From positions 62,001-126,000 of the forward strand of contig CAJXSD010000003.1 in the NCBI GenBank assembly GCA_913060475.1: a stretch of DNA of 64,000 nucleotides. Direction: 5' to 3'. The DNA comes from an uncultured Paracoccaceae bacterium (GTDB lineage Bacteria > Pseudomonadota > Alphaproteobacteria > Rhodobacterales > Rhodobacteraceae). The notes beneath the pieces were generated by a model. That model was not told where the DNA came from and ran no database searches. It saw only the letters and a program-made list of their open reading frames with translations. The translations under genes were made by a program, and so were the position numbers. Below are positions 1-40,095 of this stretch, one piece after another; the first letter of the stretch is position 1, and every line of letters begins with the position of its first letter.

Positions 1-248
1 AACATATCCGGATCGATTTTGATCGCGCGGGCCGCGGACCCAATCCCACCAAATCCCAAGGGGTTGCAGCGCGCGGTATTGTAGAACGCGCGCGGTTTAT
101 GGGCAGCGAAAGTTTGATTGAATTTCGCATGGACTATGATGGATCCGTGATTAAGGCCACGGTTCCGAACGTGTTTTTGCCCAAGGCGGGCCAACCCCTG
201 TGGTTAACGATACCGCGTGATCGGTGCTTTGTCTTTCCGGCGATCTAA
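1..248 (+). CDS. ABC transporter ATP-binding protein, C-terminal fragment (TOBE domain)
   Basis: Only the last ~81 codons are in the window; the reading frame enters at base 3 and ends at TAA 246-248. The end of the protein reads ...PLWLTIPRDRCFVFPAI, which fits the C-terminal TOBE domain of importer ATPases of the PotA/MalK/FbpC type, where the motif lies near the last beta strand and helps sense substrate or contact the permease. The nucleotide-binding part lies upstream of the window, so the substrate cannot be named. Its stop overlaps the stop of the convergent gene on the minus strand by a few bases. Confidence 0.75.
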   Translation, partial: HIRIDFDRAGRGPNPTKSQGVAARGIVERARFMGSESLIEFRMDYDGSVIKATVPNVFLPKAGQPLWLTIPRDRCFVFPAI

Positions 249-33567: not shown

Positions 33568-35346
33568 ATGTTTGGCAAACACCCTAAGTTTTTTTGGGCC
33601 TATGGGGCCCTGATCGGCGCGGCACTGGCAATTGCGGCGGCTGTCTGGCATTTGGGCTATGTCCGTGCGGTCGAACAGGTCCATGCGCGTGCGCAATCTG
33701 ATTTGGCCCTGGCCTCGGATCGATTACAGGCCCAGTTGCAACGTTATCAAGAGGTTGCGGTATTGATGGCCAACCATCCTGTTTTGGCCCGTCTGACCCA
33801 TCCAGATGCATCCCCGCAGGATCAGCAGGCCGCGCGTGATGTGTTACGGGCTGCGGCTGATAAAACAGGGGCCGTTACGCTGACCTATGTTGCGGTGGAT
33901 GGGACGATTTTGGCCTCGGCCACGCCCGAGGTATCGCGCGACATCGCCGCCGCCCCCCATTATCGCCGTGCCTTAACGGGCGCCTTGGGGGTGGGTCATG
34001 GGGATGACCCTGTTTTTGGCAAACGGGTGTTTTATTACGCATCGCCGTTTTTCGGGGCAAAACGGGGTGTTCGCGCCGTGTTAATCGTTACCGTTGATGT
34101 CGACCGCATAGAAGCCCGCTGGCGCGGAACGCGGCCGACGGTGTATTTCGTCGACCAAGGCGGGCATGTGTTTATTTCGAACCGCTCCGAACTGTTGGGG
34201 TGGTTGCGTGACCAAAACGAAGTGGGCCTGCATCCCCCGCAAAAATCAGCGGGATCGGATTTTGCGTCGCATTTGGTGGCCGCCCAGTATGAGGTTTGGT
34301 CGCTGAACTGGGGGCCCTATGTGCCAAAACGGGCATTACATATTTCCAGTGATTTGCCGACCATCGACATGCGTGCCGAGGCTTTGGTTGATTTGTCGCC
34401 CGCGGTTCGGGTTGCGTGGTTGCAATCGTTCGGGGTGGGGGCCAGTGTCGTTTTGTTTGGCCTGGTGTTGTTGTTTGTCGGTCATCGGCGCGCAGCCTTG
34501 GCCCAAGAAAACACAGAACTGGAACATCGCGTGTCCGAACGCACAGCTGAATTGTCCATCCTGAACCAAAACCTGCGCAGTGAAATTCGTGAACGCCAGG
34601 AGGCCGAAGCCGCGCTAAAGCTGGCGCAATCGGAATTGGTGCGGGCGGGTAAACTTTCTGCACTGGGGCAAATGTCGGCGGGCATCAGTCATGAATTAAA
34701 CCAGCCTTTGATGGCGATCCAGCAATATGCAATCAACGCACGGACATTTTTGGCGCAGGAAAAAAATCAGCAGGCGGGTGCCAATCTGGATCATATTGCG
34801 AGCCTGTCTCAGCGCATGGGCCGTATCATCAAAAACCTGCGGGCTTTTGCGCGAAACGAACATGAACCCGTGGGGCAGGTGGATGCGGTCGCAGTGATCG
34901 ACAGCGCGGTCGAGTTGATGGCCGTGCGCTGCACACAAGATGATATCAGCCTGAATTGGGATGCGCCCGGCATGCCCGTCTATGTTGTCGCCGGCGAGGT
35001 GCGATTGGGGCAGGTCATCGTGAACCTGATTTCCAATGCCGCGGACGCCATGGCACAGTCTGCCACGCGCGAAATAACGATCACGCTGAAACCTGCGCCT
35101 AGGGCCGACCAACCGGTGGTCGTGTCGGTTGCAGATACGGGGCCGGGCATTGACGAGCCGGAAAAAATCTTTGATCCCTTTTATACCACGAAATCGGTGG
35201 GGCAGGGCGATGGAATGGGGCTGGGTTTGTCAATTTCCTATGGCCTGATCCAAAGTTTCGGCGGCGACATCCGCGGGGAAAACACCAAAGATGGCGCGAT
35301 ATTTTCGATTGATTTGAAACCCTGGACAGGTACACAGCAGACATGA
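33568..35346 (+). CDS. dctB: DctB-like sensor histidine kinase
   Basis: A 592-residue membrane kinase of the C4-dicarboxylate (DctB) type. An N-terminal helix (about 8-30) and a second helix (about 285-305) bracket a periplasmic double-Cache/PAS sensor. A coiled coil (about 310-350) leads to the H-box GISHELNQPL with His375, then ATPase motifs (NLISNAADA, DTGPGI, GLGLSISYG). The start is uncertain: GTG 33508, ATG 33517 and ATG 33568 are all in frame; I choose 33568 because the protein then begins right before the first helix. The stop overlaps the regulator by 4 bases. Confidence 0.9.
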   Translation: MFGKHPKFFWAYGALIGAALAIAAAVWHLGYVRAVEQVHARAQSDLALASDRLQAQLQRYQEVAVLMANHPVLARLTHPDASPQDQQAARDVLRAAADKTGAVTLTYVAVDGTILASATPEVSRDIAAAPHYRRALTGALGVGHGDDPVFGKRVFYYASPFFGAKRGVRAVLIVTVDVDRIEARWRGTRPTVYFVDQGGHVFISNRSELLGWLRDQNEVGLHPPQKSAGSDFASHLVAAQYEVWSLNWGPYVPKRALHISSDLPTIDMRAEALVDLSPAVRVAWLQSFGVGASVVLFGLVLLFVGHRRAALAQENTELEHRVSERTAELSILNQNLRSEIRERQEAEAALKLAQSELVRAGKLSALGQMSAGISHELNQPLMAIQQYAINARTFLAQEKNQQAGANLDHIASLSQRMGRIIKNLRAFARNEHEPVGQVDAVAVIDSAVELMAVRCTQDDISLNWDAPGMPVYVVAGEVRLGQVIVNLISNAADAMAQSATREITITLKPAPRADQPVVVSVADTGPGIDEPEKIFDPFYTTKSVGQGDGMGLGLSISYGLIQSFGGDIRGENTKDGAIFSIDLKPWTGTQQT

Positions 35347-36575
35347 AACAGGTTTTATTGGTTGATGACGATGCGGCCGTGCGCAACGCGGTGGCCCAAA
35401 CGCTGGAACTGGCCGATTTCGATGTGATCACGGCCGGATCCTTTGTCGAGGCCAAAGACCACATCACCAAACGCTATGCCGGCGTCATTTTGTCGGATAT
35501 TCGGATGCCTGGTCGCGACGGGTTTCATTTGCTGGACTATACCAAATCGGTCGATCCAGAATTGCCAGTCGTATTTTTATCCGGCGAAGGGGATATTCCC
35601 ATGGCGGTGCGCGCCGTCGGCAAAGGGGCCTTTGATTTTTTGGAAAAACCCTGCGGACCGGCCGACATGATTGCCGTTTTGCATCGCGCCTGTGCGGCAC
35701 GATCTGTGGTTTTGGAAAACAGGGCCATGATGCATGAAATTGAAACCGGCGATCCGGCAGCGCGGTTGATATTTGGCGTATCTGAGGCCGCAGAACAGCT
35801 GCGCAGAAAAATACGGTCTGTTGCCGGGATCGAGGCAGAGGTTTTAATCACAGGCGCGGCGGGAACAGGGATTTCCAAGGTCGCCGAAGTGCTGCATCTG
35901 AGTTCGCCGCGATCCAAGGGCGCATTTCAAAAACGTGCCTCTGAGCAGTTGACACGGGACGGATTGGCCCAGGTGTTGGCGCAGTGCGAACATGGTGGGG
36001 TGTTTTTCGATGCGATCGAACAAATGCCGCGCGATACCCAGTTGATGTTGCTGGACCATATGGAATCGGGCGACCCCATGCCGCGTGTGATTGCGGGAAC
36101 AAACCTGTCCTTGGCAGATCTGGATCATTCCGGCGCCTTGGTGCCCGATTTGTTTTACCGGTTCAATGCCTTGTCCATTCGTATCCCGCCCCTGTCCGAA
36201 CGCCCCGAAGATATTCCGGTTATGTTTCACCACTATGTCGCCCAAGCGGCTGAGCAATCGGGAAAGCCCATCCCTGACATCGGCCCCGAGGTGATCGGGT
36301 CGTTAATGGCGCGCGAATGGCCTGGAAACGCGCGGTCATTGATGAGCGTTGCGATGAAATTTGTGCTGGGGATCGCAGATTTTGCCCAAACGGACATTGA
36401 TGAAACCTTGGGGTTGGCGCAGCAAATGGCGCAGGTCGAAAAGGCCCTGATTGTTGACGCATTGCGCAAATCAAATGGCCGCGTGGCCGAGGCGATCAAA
36501 ATCCTAAAACTGCCGCGCAAGACATTTTACGACAAACTGAACAAACACGGGATTCGTGCAGAGGAATTTCGCTAG
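35343..36575 (+). CDS. dctD: DctD-like response regulator with degenerate sigma-54 AAA+ domain
   Basis: A 410-residue NtrC-family regulator. The receiver domain has Asp52 as phosphate site (LSDIRMPG). The AAA+ domain is damaged: Walker A reads GAAGTGIS (171-178), with the Lys replaced by Ile; the GAFTGA loop is absent and the region around 193 reads GAFQKR; Walker B reads FFDAIE (221-226) in place of LDE. The domain is also shorter than usual. PPLSERPEDIP and EWPGNARSL remain, as does a Fis-type HTH (about 378-402). It likely binds DNA under DctB control but cannot remodel sigma-54 holoenzyme, and may act with sigma-70. Confidence 0.88.
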   Translation: MKQVLLVDDDAAVRNAVAQTLELADFDVITAGSFVEAKDHITKRYAGVILSDIRMPGRDGFHLLDYTKSVDPELPVVFLSGEGDIPMAVRAVGKGAFDFLEKPCGPADMIAVLHRACAARSVVLENRAMMHEIETGDPAARLIFGVSEAAEQLRRKIRSVAGIEAEVLITGAAGTGISKVAEVLHLSSPRSKGAFQKRASEQLTRDGLAQVLAQCEHGGVFFDAIEQMPRDTQLMLLDHMESGDPMPRVIAGTNLSLADLDHSGALVPDLFYRFNALSIRIPPLSERPEDIPVMFHHYVAQAAEQSGKPIPDIGPEVIGSLMAREWPGNARSLMSVAMKFVLGIADFAQTDIDETLGLAQQMAQVEKALIVDALRKSNGRVAEAIKILKLPRKTFYDKLNKHGIRAEEFR

Positions 36576-36577
36576 GC

Positions 36578-36595
36578 TGTGTGGAAATCCGCACA
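36578..36595. promoter_or_regulatory. Dyad 1 upstream of dctP
   Basis: TGTGTGGAA/ATCCGCACA: an 18-bp inverted repeat with one arm mismatch, starting 3 bases after the dctD stop. Its form resembles sites bound by DctD upstream of rhizobial dctA, as I recall them. A second dyad lies 33 bases further, about three helical turns, so a dimer pair on one face of the DNA is plausible. Confidence 0.7.
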
Positions 36596-36611
36596 AACCC
36601 CGTTGTGGTGC

Positions 36612-36627
36612 GTGTGAAATTTCGCAC
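36612..36627. promoter_or_regulatory. Dyad 2 upstream of dctP
   Basis: GTGTGAAA/TTTCGCAC, a 16-bp inverted repeat (7 of 8 arm pairs match). The centre is 33 bp from dyad 1. About 170 bases before the dctP ATG. AT-rich hexamers TATAAT lie at 36683-36688 and 36692-36697 and may be -10 elements; I find no GG-N10-GC sigma-54 element between. Confidence 0.68.
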
Positions 36628-36798
36628 AGTGTGCGCAGGAACAGATTGCCCTTGTGTCCCTGATGCGATGTAAGTATCTGAATATAATAAATATAATTGA
36701 TTAGATGAAAATGGAAACTCTTTGTTTGCAACATGTGGGGTTAGAGGTTCTAGTGTACTCAGCCCAAGTTGGGATCAATGGAAACGGGAGGATATTCC

Positions 36799-37800
36799 AT
36801 GAAACTATTTACCGCTGCTTTAACGGCGCTGACCCTTACCGTGTCAGCTGGTGCGGTTTCTGCTGCATGCGATGACGGCGAAATCGTAATCAAACTAAGC
36901 CACGTTACAAACACTGATAAGCACCCCAAAGGGATTGCTGCATCGTTGTTGCAGTCGCGCGTGAACGAAGAGATGAACGGCAAAGCCTGTATGGAGGTTT
37001 TCCCGAACTCAACCCTATATAACGATGACCAAGTTCTAGAAGCCTTGTTGCAAGGCGACGTTCAAATGGCGGCCCCATCGTTGTCGAAATTCGAACAGTT
37101 TACCAAAGTGTTCCGGATTTTTGACCTGCCATTTATGTTCAAAAACATCAATGCTGTTGACGAATTCCAGAACTCAGAAACGGGTCAAGCGATGAAAGAG
37201 TCCATGACCCGTCGCGGTTTGTTGGGTCTGGCGTTCTGGCACAACGGCATGAAACAAATGTCAGCAAACAAAGCGTTGAACCTGCCAACTGATGCAAACG
37301 GTCTGAAATTCCGCGTTCAGAATTCGGAAGTGTTAAAGGCGCAGATGGCCGCATTGGGTGGTTCACCCCAACCGATGGCATTTTCCGAAGTGTACGGCGC
37401 GCTGCAAACCGGTGTTGTAGACGGTCAGGAAAACACATGGTCTAACATCTATGGTCAGAAATTCTTTGAAGTCCAAGACGGCATCACCGAAACCAACCAC
37501 GGTATTATCGACTATATGTTGGTGACATCGGTTGATTGGTGGGATGGTCTGCCTGCAGATGTGCGCGATCAATTGGCAACAATTGTGACCGAAGTGACCG
37601 AAGCGCGCAACGCAGAGTCCACAGCCGTAAACGAAGCAGCCAAGCAAGAGATCATCAAAGCAGGTGGTGTTGTTCGGACATTGGACGCCGATCAGCGTGC
37701 GGCATGGGTTGCTGCGATGAAGCCTGTTTGGGAACAATTCGCGGGTGATGTTGGAACCGACAACATCGACGCTGCACAAGCAATCAACGCAAAGCACTAA
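36799..37800 (+). CDS. dctP: TRAP transporter solute-binding protein DctP
   Basis: A 333-residue periplasmic receptor for a TRAP transporter. The signal peptide is MKLFTAALTALTLTVSAGAVSA. The mature part has the DctP family pattern VIKLSHVTNTDKHPKGIAA and the solute-carboxylate region around LKFRVQNSEVLKAQMAALGGSPQPMAFSEVYGALQTGVVDGQENTW, with the conserved Arg (FRVQ) that pairs with a carboxylate. A C4-dicarboxylate is the expected ligand, supported by dctBD. Start ATG 36799 follows GGGAGGA. First gene of dctPQM. Confidence 0.94.
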   Translation: MKLFTAALTALTLTVSAGAVSAACDDGEIVIKLSHVTNTDKHPKGIAASLLQSRVNEEMNGKACMEVFPNSTLYNDDQVLEALLQGDVQMAAPSLSKFEQFTKVFRIFDLPFMFKNINAVDEFQNSETGQAMKESMTRRGLLGLAFWHNGMKQMSANKALNLPTDANGLKFRVQNSEVLKAQMAALGGSPQPMAFSEVYGALQTGVVDGQENTWSNIYGQKFFEVQDGITETNHGIIDYMLVTSVDWWDGLPADVRDQLATIVTEVTEARNAESTAVNEAAKQEIIKAGGVVRTLDADQRAAWVAAMKPVWEQFAGDVGTDNIDAAQAINAKH

Positions 37801-37866: not shown

Positions 37867-38556
37867 ATGTCTGTGGACGATCAATCGCAAACGGGGTTTG
37901 CGAAATTTATCAATGAAATAGAAGAAACCTTTATCGCGCTGCTGTTGGGCGGCATGGTATTGATTACTTTTGTCAATGTTGTGCTGCGATATGGATTTAA
38001 CACCGGCCTGATTTGGGGGCTTGAATCTGTTTTGTTTTTGTTCGCATGGCTGGTTCTGTTTGGTGTGGCCTATGCGTTCAAAGTGACCGCAAATCTCGGT
38101 GTTGACGCCATTTTGAATATCGCGCCAACGCGCATCAAACGCATCATGATCCTTGCGTCCTGTGCTGTCTGTATTATTTATGCGGGTTTGTTGTTCAAAG
38201 GGGCATGGGATTACTGGGCAAATTTTGCCAACCTGCCGCAAACAACAGGGCGCTGGTTTCCCACCGGTTTCGAAGAGATGAAACGCACATCCTATCGTGC
38301 ATGGTATGAAACCATCGATATTCCCTTCCCTGAATTTTTGCGCTGGATCGAACCCATAATGAACGAAGGCGAGCATTACGAAAAACTGCCCCGCTTTATT
38401 CCCTATGCGATGCTGCCATTTGGTGTGGGTCTGATGTTGTTTCGGATCATCCAAGTCACCATCCGCATCATCAAAGGCGACGCAGAAAACATTATTGTCA
38501 GCCACGAAGCAGAAGATGCCGTGGAAGACGCAAAACATCTAAACCAAGAGGCCTAA
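37867..38556 (+). CDS. dctQ: TRAP transporter small permease DctQ
   Basis: A 229-residue membrane protein with four helices. The GLIWGLESVLFLFAWLVLFGVAYAFK segment is typical of DctQ. An insert of about 65 residues between helices 3 and 4 (WANFANLPQTTGRWFP... to HYEKLPRF) is longer than in many DctQ proteins and is probably exposed to one side of the membrane. Start ATG 37867 follows GGGGG. It precedes dctM by 3 bases. Confidence 0.92.
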   Translation: MSVDDQSQTGFAKFINEIEETFIALLLGGMVLITFVNVVLRYGFNTGLIWGLESVLFLFAWLVLFGVAYAFKVTANLGVDAILNIAPTRIKRIMILASCAVCIIYAGLLFKGAWDYWANFANLPQTTGRWFPTGFEEMKRTSYRAWYETIDIPFPEFLRWIEPIMNEGEHYEKLPRFIPYAMLPFGVGLMLFRIIQVTIRIIKGDAENIIVSHEAEDAVEDAKHLNQEA

Positions 38557-38559
38557 TCC

Positions 38560-40095
38560 ATGTCAGTCGCAATTTTATTTGGGATGATCATCGCGCTGTT
38601 GCTGATTGGCGTCCCCATCGCTGTGGCCCTGGGTCTATCGTCGATTGTGTTTCTATTGGTGCTTAGCGATACATCGCTTGCCTCAATCGCGCAGTCGTTT
38701 TTTCAGGCGATGGCTGGGCACTATACGCTGTTGGCGATCCCGTTTTTCATTTTGGCATCTACCTTTATGTCAACGGGTGGTGTGGCGAAACGGATCATTC
38801 GGTTTTCGATCGCGCTGGTCGGTCATTTCCGCGGGGGATTGGCGATTGCGGGCGTGTTTGCCTGCATGATGTTTGCGGCCCTATCAGGGTCATCACCGGC
38901 CACGGTTGTGGCCATTGGATCCATTGTGATCGCTGGCATGCGCCAAGTTGGGTACACCAAGGATTTCGCCGCTGGTGTCATTGCCAATGCAGGCACTTTG
39001 GGCATTTTGATTCCGCCATCGATTGTGATGGTGGTCTATGCCTCGGCCACGGATGTGTCCGTGGGACGGATGTTTTTGGCTGGGGTCATCCCCGGATTGA
39101 TGGCGGGTACCATGTTGATGCTGGCCATTTGGGTGATTGCCCGCATGCGCAACCTGCCCAAGGGCGAATGGAAAGGCTGGGGCGAGGTCCTGTCATCAGG
39201 GCGCGACGCCATCTGGGGTCTGTTTTTGATCATCATCATCTTGGGCGGGATCTATGGCGGTATTTTTACCCCGACCGAAGCGGCAGCCGTCGCAGCCGTC
39301 TATGCGTTTTTGATCGCAAACTTTGTCTATCGTGACATGGGTATCTTTGCCAAAGTGGCGCCCAAGGCGGGCAATTTCGCAACCATTTTTGTGTTGGGTG
39401 GCGTAGCGCTGGGAATTGCAATCTGGCTGACACTGGGCATCGATTTGCCAACCGCGACGCTGTACGGATTTGGGGTGGCGTTGGTATTGGCCATTTGGGA
39501 CAGCCTGCGCAAAGGGCAAATGCCGGTCCCCGTTCACATCGCGTCAGATATCGTGAAAATGCCCCTGTCTGTGGTGCACAAAGATACCCGTGACACCCTG
39601 TTCGAAGCGGGAAAAATGACCGTGACATTGATGTTCATCATCGCCAACGCGCTGATTTTGAAACATGTGTTGACGGACGAACAAATCCCGCAACAAATCA
39701 CGGCTGCTATGCTGGATGCGGGTTTTGGTCCGATCATGTTCCTGGTCATTGTGAACGTGATTTTGTTGATCGGGGGTCAGTTTATGGAACCATCCGGGCT
39801 GATTGTGATTGTGGCCCCTTTGGTTTTCCCGATTGCCATTGAACTGGGTATTGATCCGATCCATTTGGGGATCATTATGGTGGTGAACATGGAAATCGGC
39901 ATGATCACGCCGCCCGTAGGTTTGAACCTGTTTGTGACCTCGGGCGTGGCGGGAATGCCCATGATGAAGGTTGTGCGCGCCGCATTGCCATTCTTGGCCG
40001 TGTTGTTCGTGTTCTTGATTATGGTGACCTATATCCCGATCCTGTCTACGTTCTTGCCCACCTATTTCATGGGGCCGGAAATCATCACAAAATAA
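38560..40095 (+). CDS. dctM: TRAP transporter large permease DctM
   Basis: A 511-residue sodium-coupled permease of the DctM family with about 12-13 membrane helices. Family motifs: AMAGHYTLLAIPFFILAS, GGLAIAGVFACMMFAALSGSSPATVVAIGS, GVIANAGTLGILIPPSI and the C-terminal MITPPVGLNLFV. It is larger than common DctM proteins (about 425) because of an insert around 255-390 that includes extra helices and a polar stretch. It ends at a strong terminator. Confidence 0.95.
   Translation: MSVAILFGMIIALLLIGVPIAVALGLSSIVFLLVLSDTSLASIAQSFFQAMAGHYTLLAIPFFILASTFMSTGGVAKRIIRFSIALVGHFRGGLAIAGVFACMMFAALSGSSPATVVAIGSIVIAGMRQVGYTKDFAAGVIANAGTLGILIPPSIVMVVYASATDVSVGRMFLAGVIPGLMAGTMLMLAIWVIARMRNLPKGEWKGWGEVLSSGRDAIWGLFLIIIILGGIYGGIFTPTEAAAVAAVYAFLIANFVYRDMGIFAKVAPKAGNFATIFVLGGVALGIAIWLTLGIDLPTATLYGFGVALVLAIWDSLRKGQMPVPVHIASDIVKMPLSVVHKDTRDTLFEAGKMTVTLMFIIANALILKHVLTDEQIPQQITAAMLDAGFGPIMFLVIVNVILLIGGQFMEPSGLIVIVAPLVFPIAIELGIDPIHLGIIMVVNMEIGMITPPVGLNLFVTSGVAGMPMMKVVRAALPFLAVLFVFLIMVTYIPILSTFLPTYFMGPEIITK

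Follow-up and report, generated by a model that had tools for sequence, protein, structure and literature searches.

Response regulators of the NtrC family that lack the GAFTGA loop have been described before, and one of them, the NtrC of Rhodobacter capsulatus, was reportedly treated by Bowman and Kranz in 1998. Excerpts of two papers (PMC10274813, PMC3162934) count R. capsulatus NtrC, Caulobacter NtrC, VpsR, HupR, TyrR and DhaR among the GAFTGA-less members that act with sigma-70. As excerpted from the first of these (PMC10274813), R. capsulatus NtrC activates sigma-70 promoters and must be phosphorylated to do so; it keeps its Walker site, needs ATP binding and serves a nitrogen regulon. 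According to the same excerpts, Caulobacter NtrC has lost GAFTGA through a deletion of only eight residues, has and needs the Walker A Lys and the Walker B Asp, and both activates and represses at sigma-70 promoters (PMC10274813). VpsR of Vibrio cholerae, described there as an orphan biofilm regulator that binds cyclic di-GMP, also lacks GAFTGA and uses sigma-70 promoters, reportedly with no need for ATP (PMC10274813). The locus compared with them here, dctBD-dctPQM, lies in a window of 64,000 nucleotides (the whole stretch of DNA that was analysed: contig CAJXSD010000003.1, positions 62,001 to 126,000) from an uncultured Paracoccaceae bacterium. Its response regulator, DctD, and the counterparts of this protein in many relatives have lost the motor parts of a sigma-54 activator, kept their DNA sites and target genes, and probably come to work with the ordinary transcription machinery.

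The genes dctB, dctD, dctP, dctQ and dctM follow one another on the + strand within the window. The dctD gene (35343..36575, +), whose start overlaps the dctB stop in the sequence ATGA, encodes an NtrC-family response regulator of 410 amino acids in which Pfam recognizes Response_reg, a partial Sigma54_activ, AAA_lid_14 and HTH_8. An earlier note on this DNA had claimed that the receiver Asp and the Fis-type helix-turn-helix (HTH) are intact, which holds: the receiver has D9, D10, D52 and K102, and HTH_8 is among the Pfam matches. The note had also reported Ile at the Walker A Lys position and no GAFTGA loop. Both are borne out, since Ile177 replaces the Lys in the degenerate Walker A sequence GAAGTGISKVAE (35853..35888, +) and the GAFTGA segment has been deleted. 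Its statement that Walker B lacks the DE pair is only half right. The degenerate Walker B, GGVFFDAIEQ (35994..36023, +), contains VFFDAIE; Asp223 is retained, Ala224 stands in place of Glu, and most relatives keep that Glu. Conserved in place of the Walker Lys is Lys179 (codon 35877-35879), and Glu182 is encoded at 35886-35888. Set against the canonical GKExxAR, the ISKVAE of this protein has lost Lys at position 0, gained Lys at +2 and exchanged Arg for Glu at +5.

The AlphaFold model of DctD (mean predicted local distance difference test 93.8, predicted template modelling score 0.72) has an AAA+ part that superposes on FlrC 4qht_B (Z 23.7, root-mean-square deviation 2.0, 211 residues) and a receiver that superposes on Sinorhizobium meliloti DctD 1qkk (Z 24.8, root-mean-square deviation 1.4, 139 residues, 41% identity). 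The fold, which matches sigma-54 activator AAA+ structures, has thus been retained; the motor residues have not. Compared with VpsR 7v2b_A, the model gives Z 23.8 and a root-mean-square deviation of 13.1 over 337 residues at 19% identity, the domains being placed differently. The protein therefore has the receiver, NtrC-type AAA+ fold and Fis-type HTH of a DctD, and it adjoins dctB and dicarboxylate transporter genes. The loss of GAFTGA with receiver and HTH kept is also the pattern of the R. capsulatus NtrC type.

Is this one damaged gene, or a property of a lineage? A set of 248 family genomes, with roughly one to a genus, contains 104 with degenerate DctD proteins, a hand count from the match list at roughly 47% identity or more that includes two partial hits. 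The motif alignment holds 116 proteins after removal of L014 (the same as L044), L059 (the same protein as L029), L080 and the partial L090 and L091; the remaining rows may include one species from two collections. Two marks of a sigma-54 enhancer-binding protein are missing throughout: no GAFTGA-like motif occurs in any of the 116, and none has Lys at the Walker position, which is I in 73, T in 21, V in 13, L in 4, N in 3 and M in 2. In Walker B, Asp is present in 111 and Glu in 91 of the 116, so that the DA of the window's protein represents a loss common to few only. The phosphorylatable Asp, D52, is invariant (116/116). Among 60 close pairs at 80-97% identity (55 to 59 usable per domain), the median ratio of nonsynonymous to synonymous substitution (dN/dS) was 0.054 for the receiver, 0.121 for the AAA core, 0.055 for the Walker A region, 0.064 for the lid and 0.049 for the HTH. 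These low ratios in the AAA+ regions argue that the altered domain is under selection, and they reject a pseudogene. A sequencing error or frameshift is rejected as well, because all 116 relatives lack both GAFTGA and the Walker Lys; the outcome by which the earlier note would have been overturned, intact motifs on resequencing, has become very unlikely.

Two well-formed dyads had been noticed next to this gene, and they recur in relatives. Palindrome 1, TGTGTGGAAATCCGCACA (36578..36595), begins 3 bases past the dctD stop, and palindrome 2, CGTGTGAAATTTCGCACA (36611..36628), starts 33 bp from the start of the first; both are predicted DctD sites. The consensus between dctD and dctP is two copies of TGTGCGG-N4-CCGCACA. 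The best palindrome agrees at 10 or more of 14 positions in 94 of 94 regions and at 11 or more in 93, and both palindromes reach at least 10/14 in 84, with a spacing of 33 bp in 57 and 32 bp in 23. Nineteen loci have no dctP directly downstream. In seven of these dctP lies 1.1-3.3 kb from dctD, and in all seven a palindrome of at least 12/14 sits 0.24-0.32 kb before the displaced dctP; of the other 12 rearranged loci, three have such a palindrome somewhere and nine have none within the examined stretch. The possibility that the palindromes are simply part of the dctD 3' end is rejected, because it is dctP that they accompany when a locus has been rearranged.

The palindrome pattern was also scanned for in 43 chosen genomes (21 with degenerate DctD, 1 transitional, 1 with GAFTGA and 20 others). 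It was found in all 21 genomes with degenerate DctD, directly behind dctD in 19 and within 3 kb in 2, and in the transitional genome; the GAFTGA genome had none at that stringency. Two of the 20 others had it, and both turned out to carry a DctD without an AAA+ domain. As a control, the reversed pattern matched 7 of the 43 genomes. A further palindrome away from dct was present in 4 of the 21 genomes with degenerate DctD.

A similar site is found before the dctA of Rhizobium leguminosarum (locus L186), together with a -24/-12 promoter; its half-site pairs, TGTGCATTTTTCTGCACG and TGTGCGGATTTCCGCATT, have starts 33 bp apart by eye. The rhizobial DctD resembles the protein studied here in its receiver, its DctB partner, its dicarboxylate transport target and the palindrome half-sites before dctA. 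It differs in having GAFTGA and intact Walker motifs, in the -24/-12 site at dctA, and in its target, which is DctA and not a transporter of the tripartite ATP-independent periplasmic (TRAP) type. The S. meliloti locus L185 is a GAFPGA paralogue with no dctA beside it and was not used for this comparison.

No GG-N10-GC promoter was found between dctD and dctP in the window, as the earlier note had said. Across 89 dctD-dctP regions the best -24/-12 scores match those of shuffled sequences (three regions reach 9 or more, where 3.8 would be expected), and in a set of 90 no site agrees with 10 or more of the 12 consensus bases. These scans did not rise above shuffles with or without the GG/GC requirement, and on them a -24/-12 promoter is rejected for the degenerate clade. 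In its place there is a positioned TTG: 65 of 85 regions have one at 105-109 bp from the centre of palindrome 2, against a median of 8 for other 5-bp windows. At this position the consensus reads CTTGAGCG, then 17 bp, then T....T (T at 0.58 and 0.82); CG stands two bases ahead of T....T. The distance from palindrome to TTG is nearly constant and that from palindrome to ATG is variable. Promoter scan scores as such are barely above shuffles overall (12.08 against 11.68), and it is the position alone that is informative. The next peak of TTG (29/85, at +55..59) fits a site for integration host factor (IHF). IHF-like scores of 8-9 out of 9 occur in 36 of the 85 regions, against 8.3 in shuffles, and 18 of these 36 sites lie at +50/51, in one orientation and in an A+T-rich zone. 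The window has an A+T-rich stretch where relatives have the IHF-like site (36670..36704), with a poor match to the IHF consensus, followed by a predicted -35 element, TTGCAA (36726..36731, +), at the same position as the TTG of relatives, 106 bp from the centre of palindrome 2. After a 17-bp spacer comes a predicted -10 element, TCTAGT (36749..36754, +), placed as the T....T of relatives.

The order in which the motifs were lost was read from a tree of 73 proteins, built with the motif columns left out. The window's DctD groups with GAFTGA-bearing DctD proteins of the same locus in a dct-locus clade of 54 rows (support 100/99). L122 and L189, in which GAFTGA is present, stand at its base. L116 and L115 branch next, having lost the GAFTGA loop and kept GKE/GKD and DE. 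The main clade of 42 rows (99/97) has lost the Walker Lys, and its sister, group B, has 8 rows (100/100) in which GK or GR is kept, Walker B is lost and dctPQM is divergent. The promoters were read at the same loci. The genomes of L122, L189 and L230 have sigma-54, and their loci have a -24/-12 site and palindromes 32 bp apart; the -24 element TGGCACG starts at +106 in L189, +104 in L230 and +60 in L122. L116, from a genome with no sigma-54 match, has TTGATC at +107, and L115, from a genome with sigma-54, has neither a -24/-12 site nor the TTG element. In group B (L117-L119, L121, L123, L127, L130 and L132) Walker B reads xSxKxL, dctPQM diverges from dctBD, and palindromes lie between dctP and dctB in most members; the TGGCAC-N5-TGC of L117 misses a -24/-12 site by one base.

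The series continues to proteins with no AAA+ domain at all. The two exceptional genomes of the palindrome scan have DctD proteins of 199 and 208 amino acids that consist of receiver and HTH_8 only. Seven such proteins were found among the 248 genomes, in G001, G063, G146, G230, G074, G139 and G240. Five lie between dctB and dctPQM (L231:2368-2994, L232:2545-3144, L267, L268 and L269); the other two, L270 and L271, have the gene order of group B. In a tree built from the receiver and HTH columns, the five are united in a single clade (99/95), and L270 and L271 branch within group B next to L132 (99/99). These supported branches indicate that the AAA+ domain was lost at least twice, and its absence at a dct locus implies that it is dispensable there altogether. 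Sigma-54 is present in two of the seven genomes. As read from the sequences, then, the order at the dct locus runs from GAFTGA with rpoN and a -24/-12 site, through loss of the loop, to loss of Walker A or Walker B and finally of the whole AAA+ domain. The earlier note had not foreseen that the motif losses would be ancient, shared by the whole clade and made step by step, or that they would reach deletion of the entire domain.

We consider it fairly probable that DctD is a phosphorylation-controlled activator of dctPQM that combines an inherited sigma-54-type enhancer with a sigma-70-type promoter. The motif losses and their conservation, the palindrome pair, the positioned TTG, the lack of a -24/-12 site and the tree order, all read from sequence, are the ground for this account. 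DctD would descend from a normal sigma-54 enhancer-binding protein at the same locus and would be the response regulator of DctB, switching on dctPQM when phosphorylated. It probably still binds the inherited palindrome pair. It would no longer hydrolyse ATP for the opening of sigma-54 promoters, and its AAA+ fold may have been retained for oligomerisation, as a scaffold that probably does not bind ATP normally. The DNA between palindromes and promoter is probably bent, as the IHF-like site of relatives suggests, and DctD would recruit or stimulate RNA polymerase, probably with a sigma-70-type factor, at TTG(A)-17-T....T about 107 bp downstream of the palindromes. The fixed distance from palindromes to TTG(A), the possible bend and the intact receiver together argue for phosphorylation-dependent activation from a distance. 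A wider history can be put forward more tentatively. A sigma-54 enhancer system may have been turned into a sigma-70 one with its tandem sites, and probably the bend, kept; the -24 element (TGGCACG at +104 and +106 in two GAFTGA loci) may have become a -35 element in place (CTTGAGCG at about +107 in the degenerate clade), as the AAA+ motor was dismantled in different orders and wholly lost at least twice, the protein remaining an activator of the same genes throughout.

Several observations weigh against this account. A generic promoter scan of the window's sequence prefers CTGATG-17-TATAAT, nearer the palindromes. Twenty of the 85 regions have no TTG at +105..109, and the -10 element is weak, only 25% having A as its second base. 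The TTG element occurs in 7 of 13 loci from genomes with sigma-54 and 38 of 46 from those without (Fisher p 0.06), and the loci are related, so that the counts are not independent. The five AAA-free loci of the dctB-dctD-dctPQM type have one good palindrome (12-14/14), by reading about 172-186 bp before dctP, no second palindrome at 31-34 bp, and in only one case a TTG at +105..109 (at +106); the promoter geometry there may therefore differ. Sigma-54 itself is present in 23 of the 104 genomes with degenerate DctD. In the window's own genome (G000, the window lying on contig C3; 2.54 Mb, 81% complete) no sigma-54 match exceeds the cut-off, the one Sigma54_DBD match scoring 19.9 bits against 22.8, and rpoN could sit in the missing part. 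Over the family a sigma-54 was detected in 75 of the 248 genomes, and its co-occurrence with degenerate DctD (104, 75 and 23 with both, of 248) gives a Fisher p of 0.025, uncorrected for kinship. As 23 genomes have both, losing sigma-54 does not suffice as a cause, and loss of rpoN as the sole cause is rejected.

Does DctD activate dctPQM, or has it become a repressor that blocks or loops over the promoter until dicarboxylate signalling relieves it? The palindromes alone are silent on the sign of regulation, and Caulobacter NtrC, as noted above, is a GAFTGA-less regulator that does both. Repression is nevertheless rather unlikely. The -35-like element is not covered by the palindromes, which are found at a fixed distance upstream of it, about 107 and 140 bp. 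In Ruegeria pomeroyi, according to excerpts of PMC10130141, optical density on fumarate was lower by 99.1% in a mutant of dctM (SPO2626), 96.7% in one of dctP (SPO2628) and 96.9% in one of the sensor gene (SPO2630), and on succinate by 92.6%, 75.2% and 81.8%; on malate the growth loss was not significant for the SPO2628 and SPO2630 mutants. SPO2630 is called the sensor in PMC4809877, and SPO2629, going by gene order alone, may be the R. pomeroyi DctD. That loss of the sensor mimics loss of the transporter suggests activation, with a polar effect possible. Derepression would have given the reverse, except in the case that the unphosphorylated form is itself a repressor or that the insertion is polar. 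The proposal of the earlier note, that the regulator may activate sigma-70 transcription or repress dctPQM, thus stands in outline and is narrowed to activation by the upstream position of the dyads and by these mutant data.

A second alternative shares the activation of dctPQM and gives the remade P-loop a nucleotide, ATP or another, with Lys179 replacing the lost Lys, much as R. capsulatus NtrC is reported in excerpts to need the binding of ATP but not its hydrolysis. The P-loop glycines are kept (G171 in 115, G174 in 116 and G176 in 113 of the 116), and so are the sensor II Arg (Arg331, 114/116) and the second arginine-finger position (Arg273; R in 101, K in 12). The position of Lys179, two after the lost Walker Lys, is K in 115 and R in one, a near-invariance absent from the earlier note, and the low dN/dS of the Walker A region agrees with a function there. 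Lys179, however, sits two residues further on and in the model belongs to the helix, a placement unlike that of a Walker Lys; group B keeps Lys or Arg and has lost Walker B, and two lineages have lost the whole domain. We give this alternative the same slender chance as repression.

Far less probable is that DctD is a decaying relic and that dctPQM is expressed without it. The loss of catalytic motifs is what such decay would look like, but dN/dS is low in every domain, the phosphorylatable Asp and HTH residues are invariant, the palindromes are conserved and the R. pomeroyi sensor mutant, in the excerpts cited, has a phenotype. Least credible of all is a dctP promoter still served by sigma-54 through DctD or another activator, to which the 23 genomes with both would lend themselves, against the complete absence of GAFTGA, the -24/-12 scans and the lack of an above-threshold sigma-54 in the window genome.

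Activation of dctPQM from a sigma-70-type promoter therefore remains the reading we prefer, and the precedent of R. capsulatus NtrC, which the earlier note had invoked, is apt: both are NtrC-family response regulators without GAFTGA, from the same order (PMC10274813, excerpts). The DctD clade goes further, having lost the Walker A Lys also and including AAA-free homologues. VpsR is a second precedent for the principle. Compared with the known sigma-70 types, the sequences stand out by a Walker Lys that is uniformly lost, a promoter layout that is conserved, and homologues free of the AAA+ domain. A literature search with most subscription journals outside its scope found no report of a GAFTGA-less DctD in this family or of an AAA-free DctD. 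Receiver plus Fis-type HTH with no AAA+ domain is also the architecture of the global redox regulators of the RegA/PrrA/ActR type. The AAA-free DctD shares it, but the tree places this protein among the DctD sequences and its gene is found between dctB and dctPQM. One locus, at which sensor, target and DNA sites stay the same, thus offers a natural series that begins with a complete sigma-54 AAA+ activator and ends with a motorless regulator of two domains. It becomes possible to test what the AAA+ domain contributes after sigma-54 has ceased to be the partner, and by what route an enhancer-binding protein switches sigma factor. It also means that 'sigma-54 dependent regulator' is the wrong label for these proteins, a name that plasmid records apply even to related matches.

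The remaining genes of the locus are those of a sensor and a transporter. The dctB gene (33568..35346, +; start uncertain, the open reading frame list giving 33508) encodes a dCache sensor histidine kinase with HisKA, HATPase_c and dCache_1. In L057, L068 and L108 a degenerate dctD was found with no dctB detected beside it. The TRAP solute-binding protein is encoded by dctP (36799..37800, +; DctP family, E 1.3e-104), the small permease by dctQ (37867..38556, +) and the large permease by dctM (38560..40095, +), the last two taken from open reading frame and position and named by homology, in the case of dctQ to the DctQ of relatives.

Pfam finds three more NtrC-family proteins in the window genome (L001, L002 and L003), and these too lack a GAFTGA-like motif. 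L002 (G000:C10:12321-15779) is a regulator of about 480 amino acids with Walker A GETGTGKT, Walker B LEDIE and an altered loop. A further set of DctD-like regulators (L124-L126, L128, L129, L131, L133, L190-L192 and L195-L198) has a GAFPGA, GAYPGA or GSFPGA loop with intact Walker motifs, and no sigma-54 exceeded the cut-off in 10 of the 13 genomes checked for them. Thr-to-Pro changes of this kind in the loop are noted in excerpts of PMC3162934.

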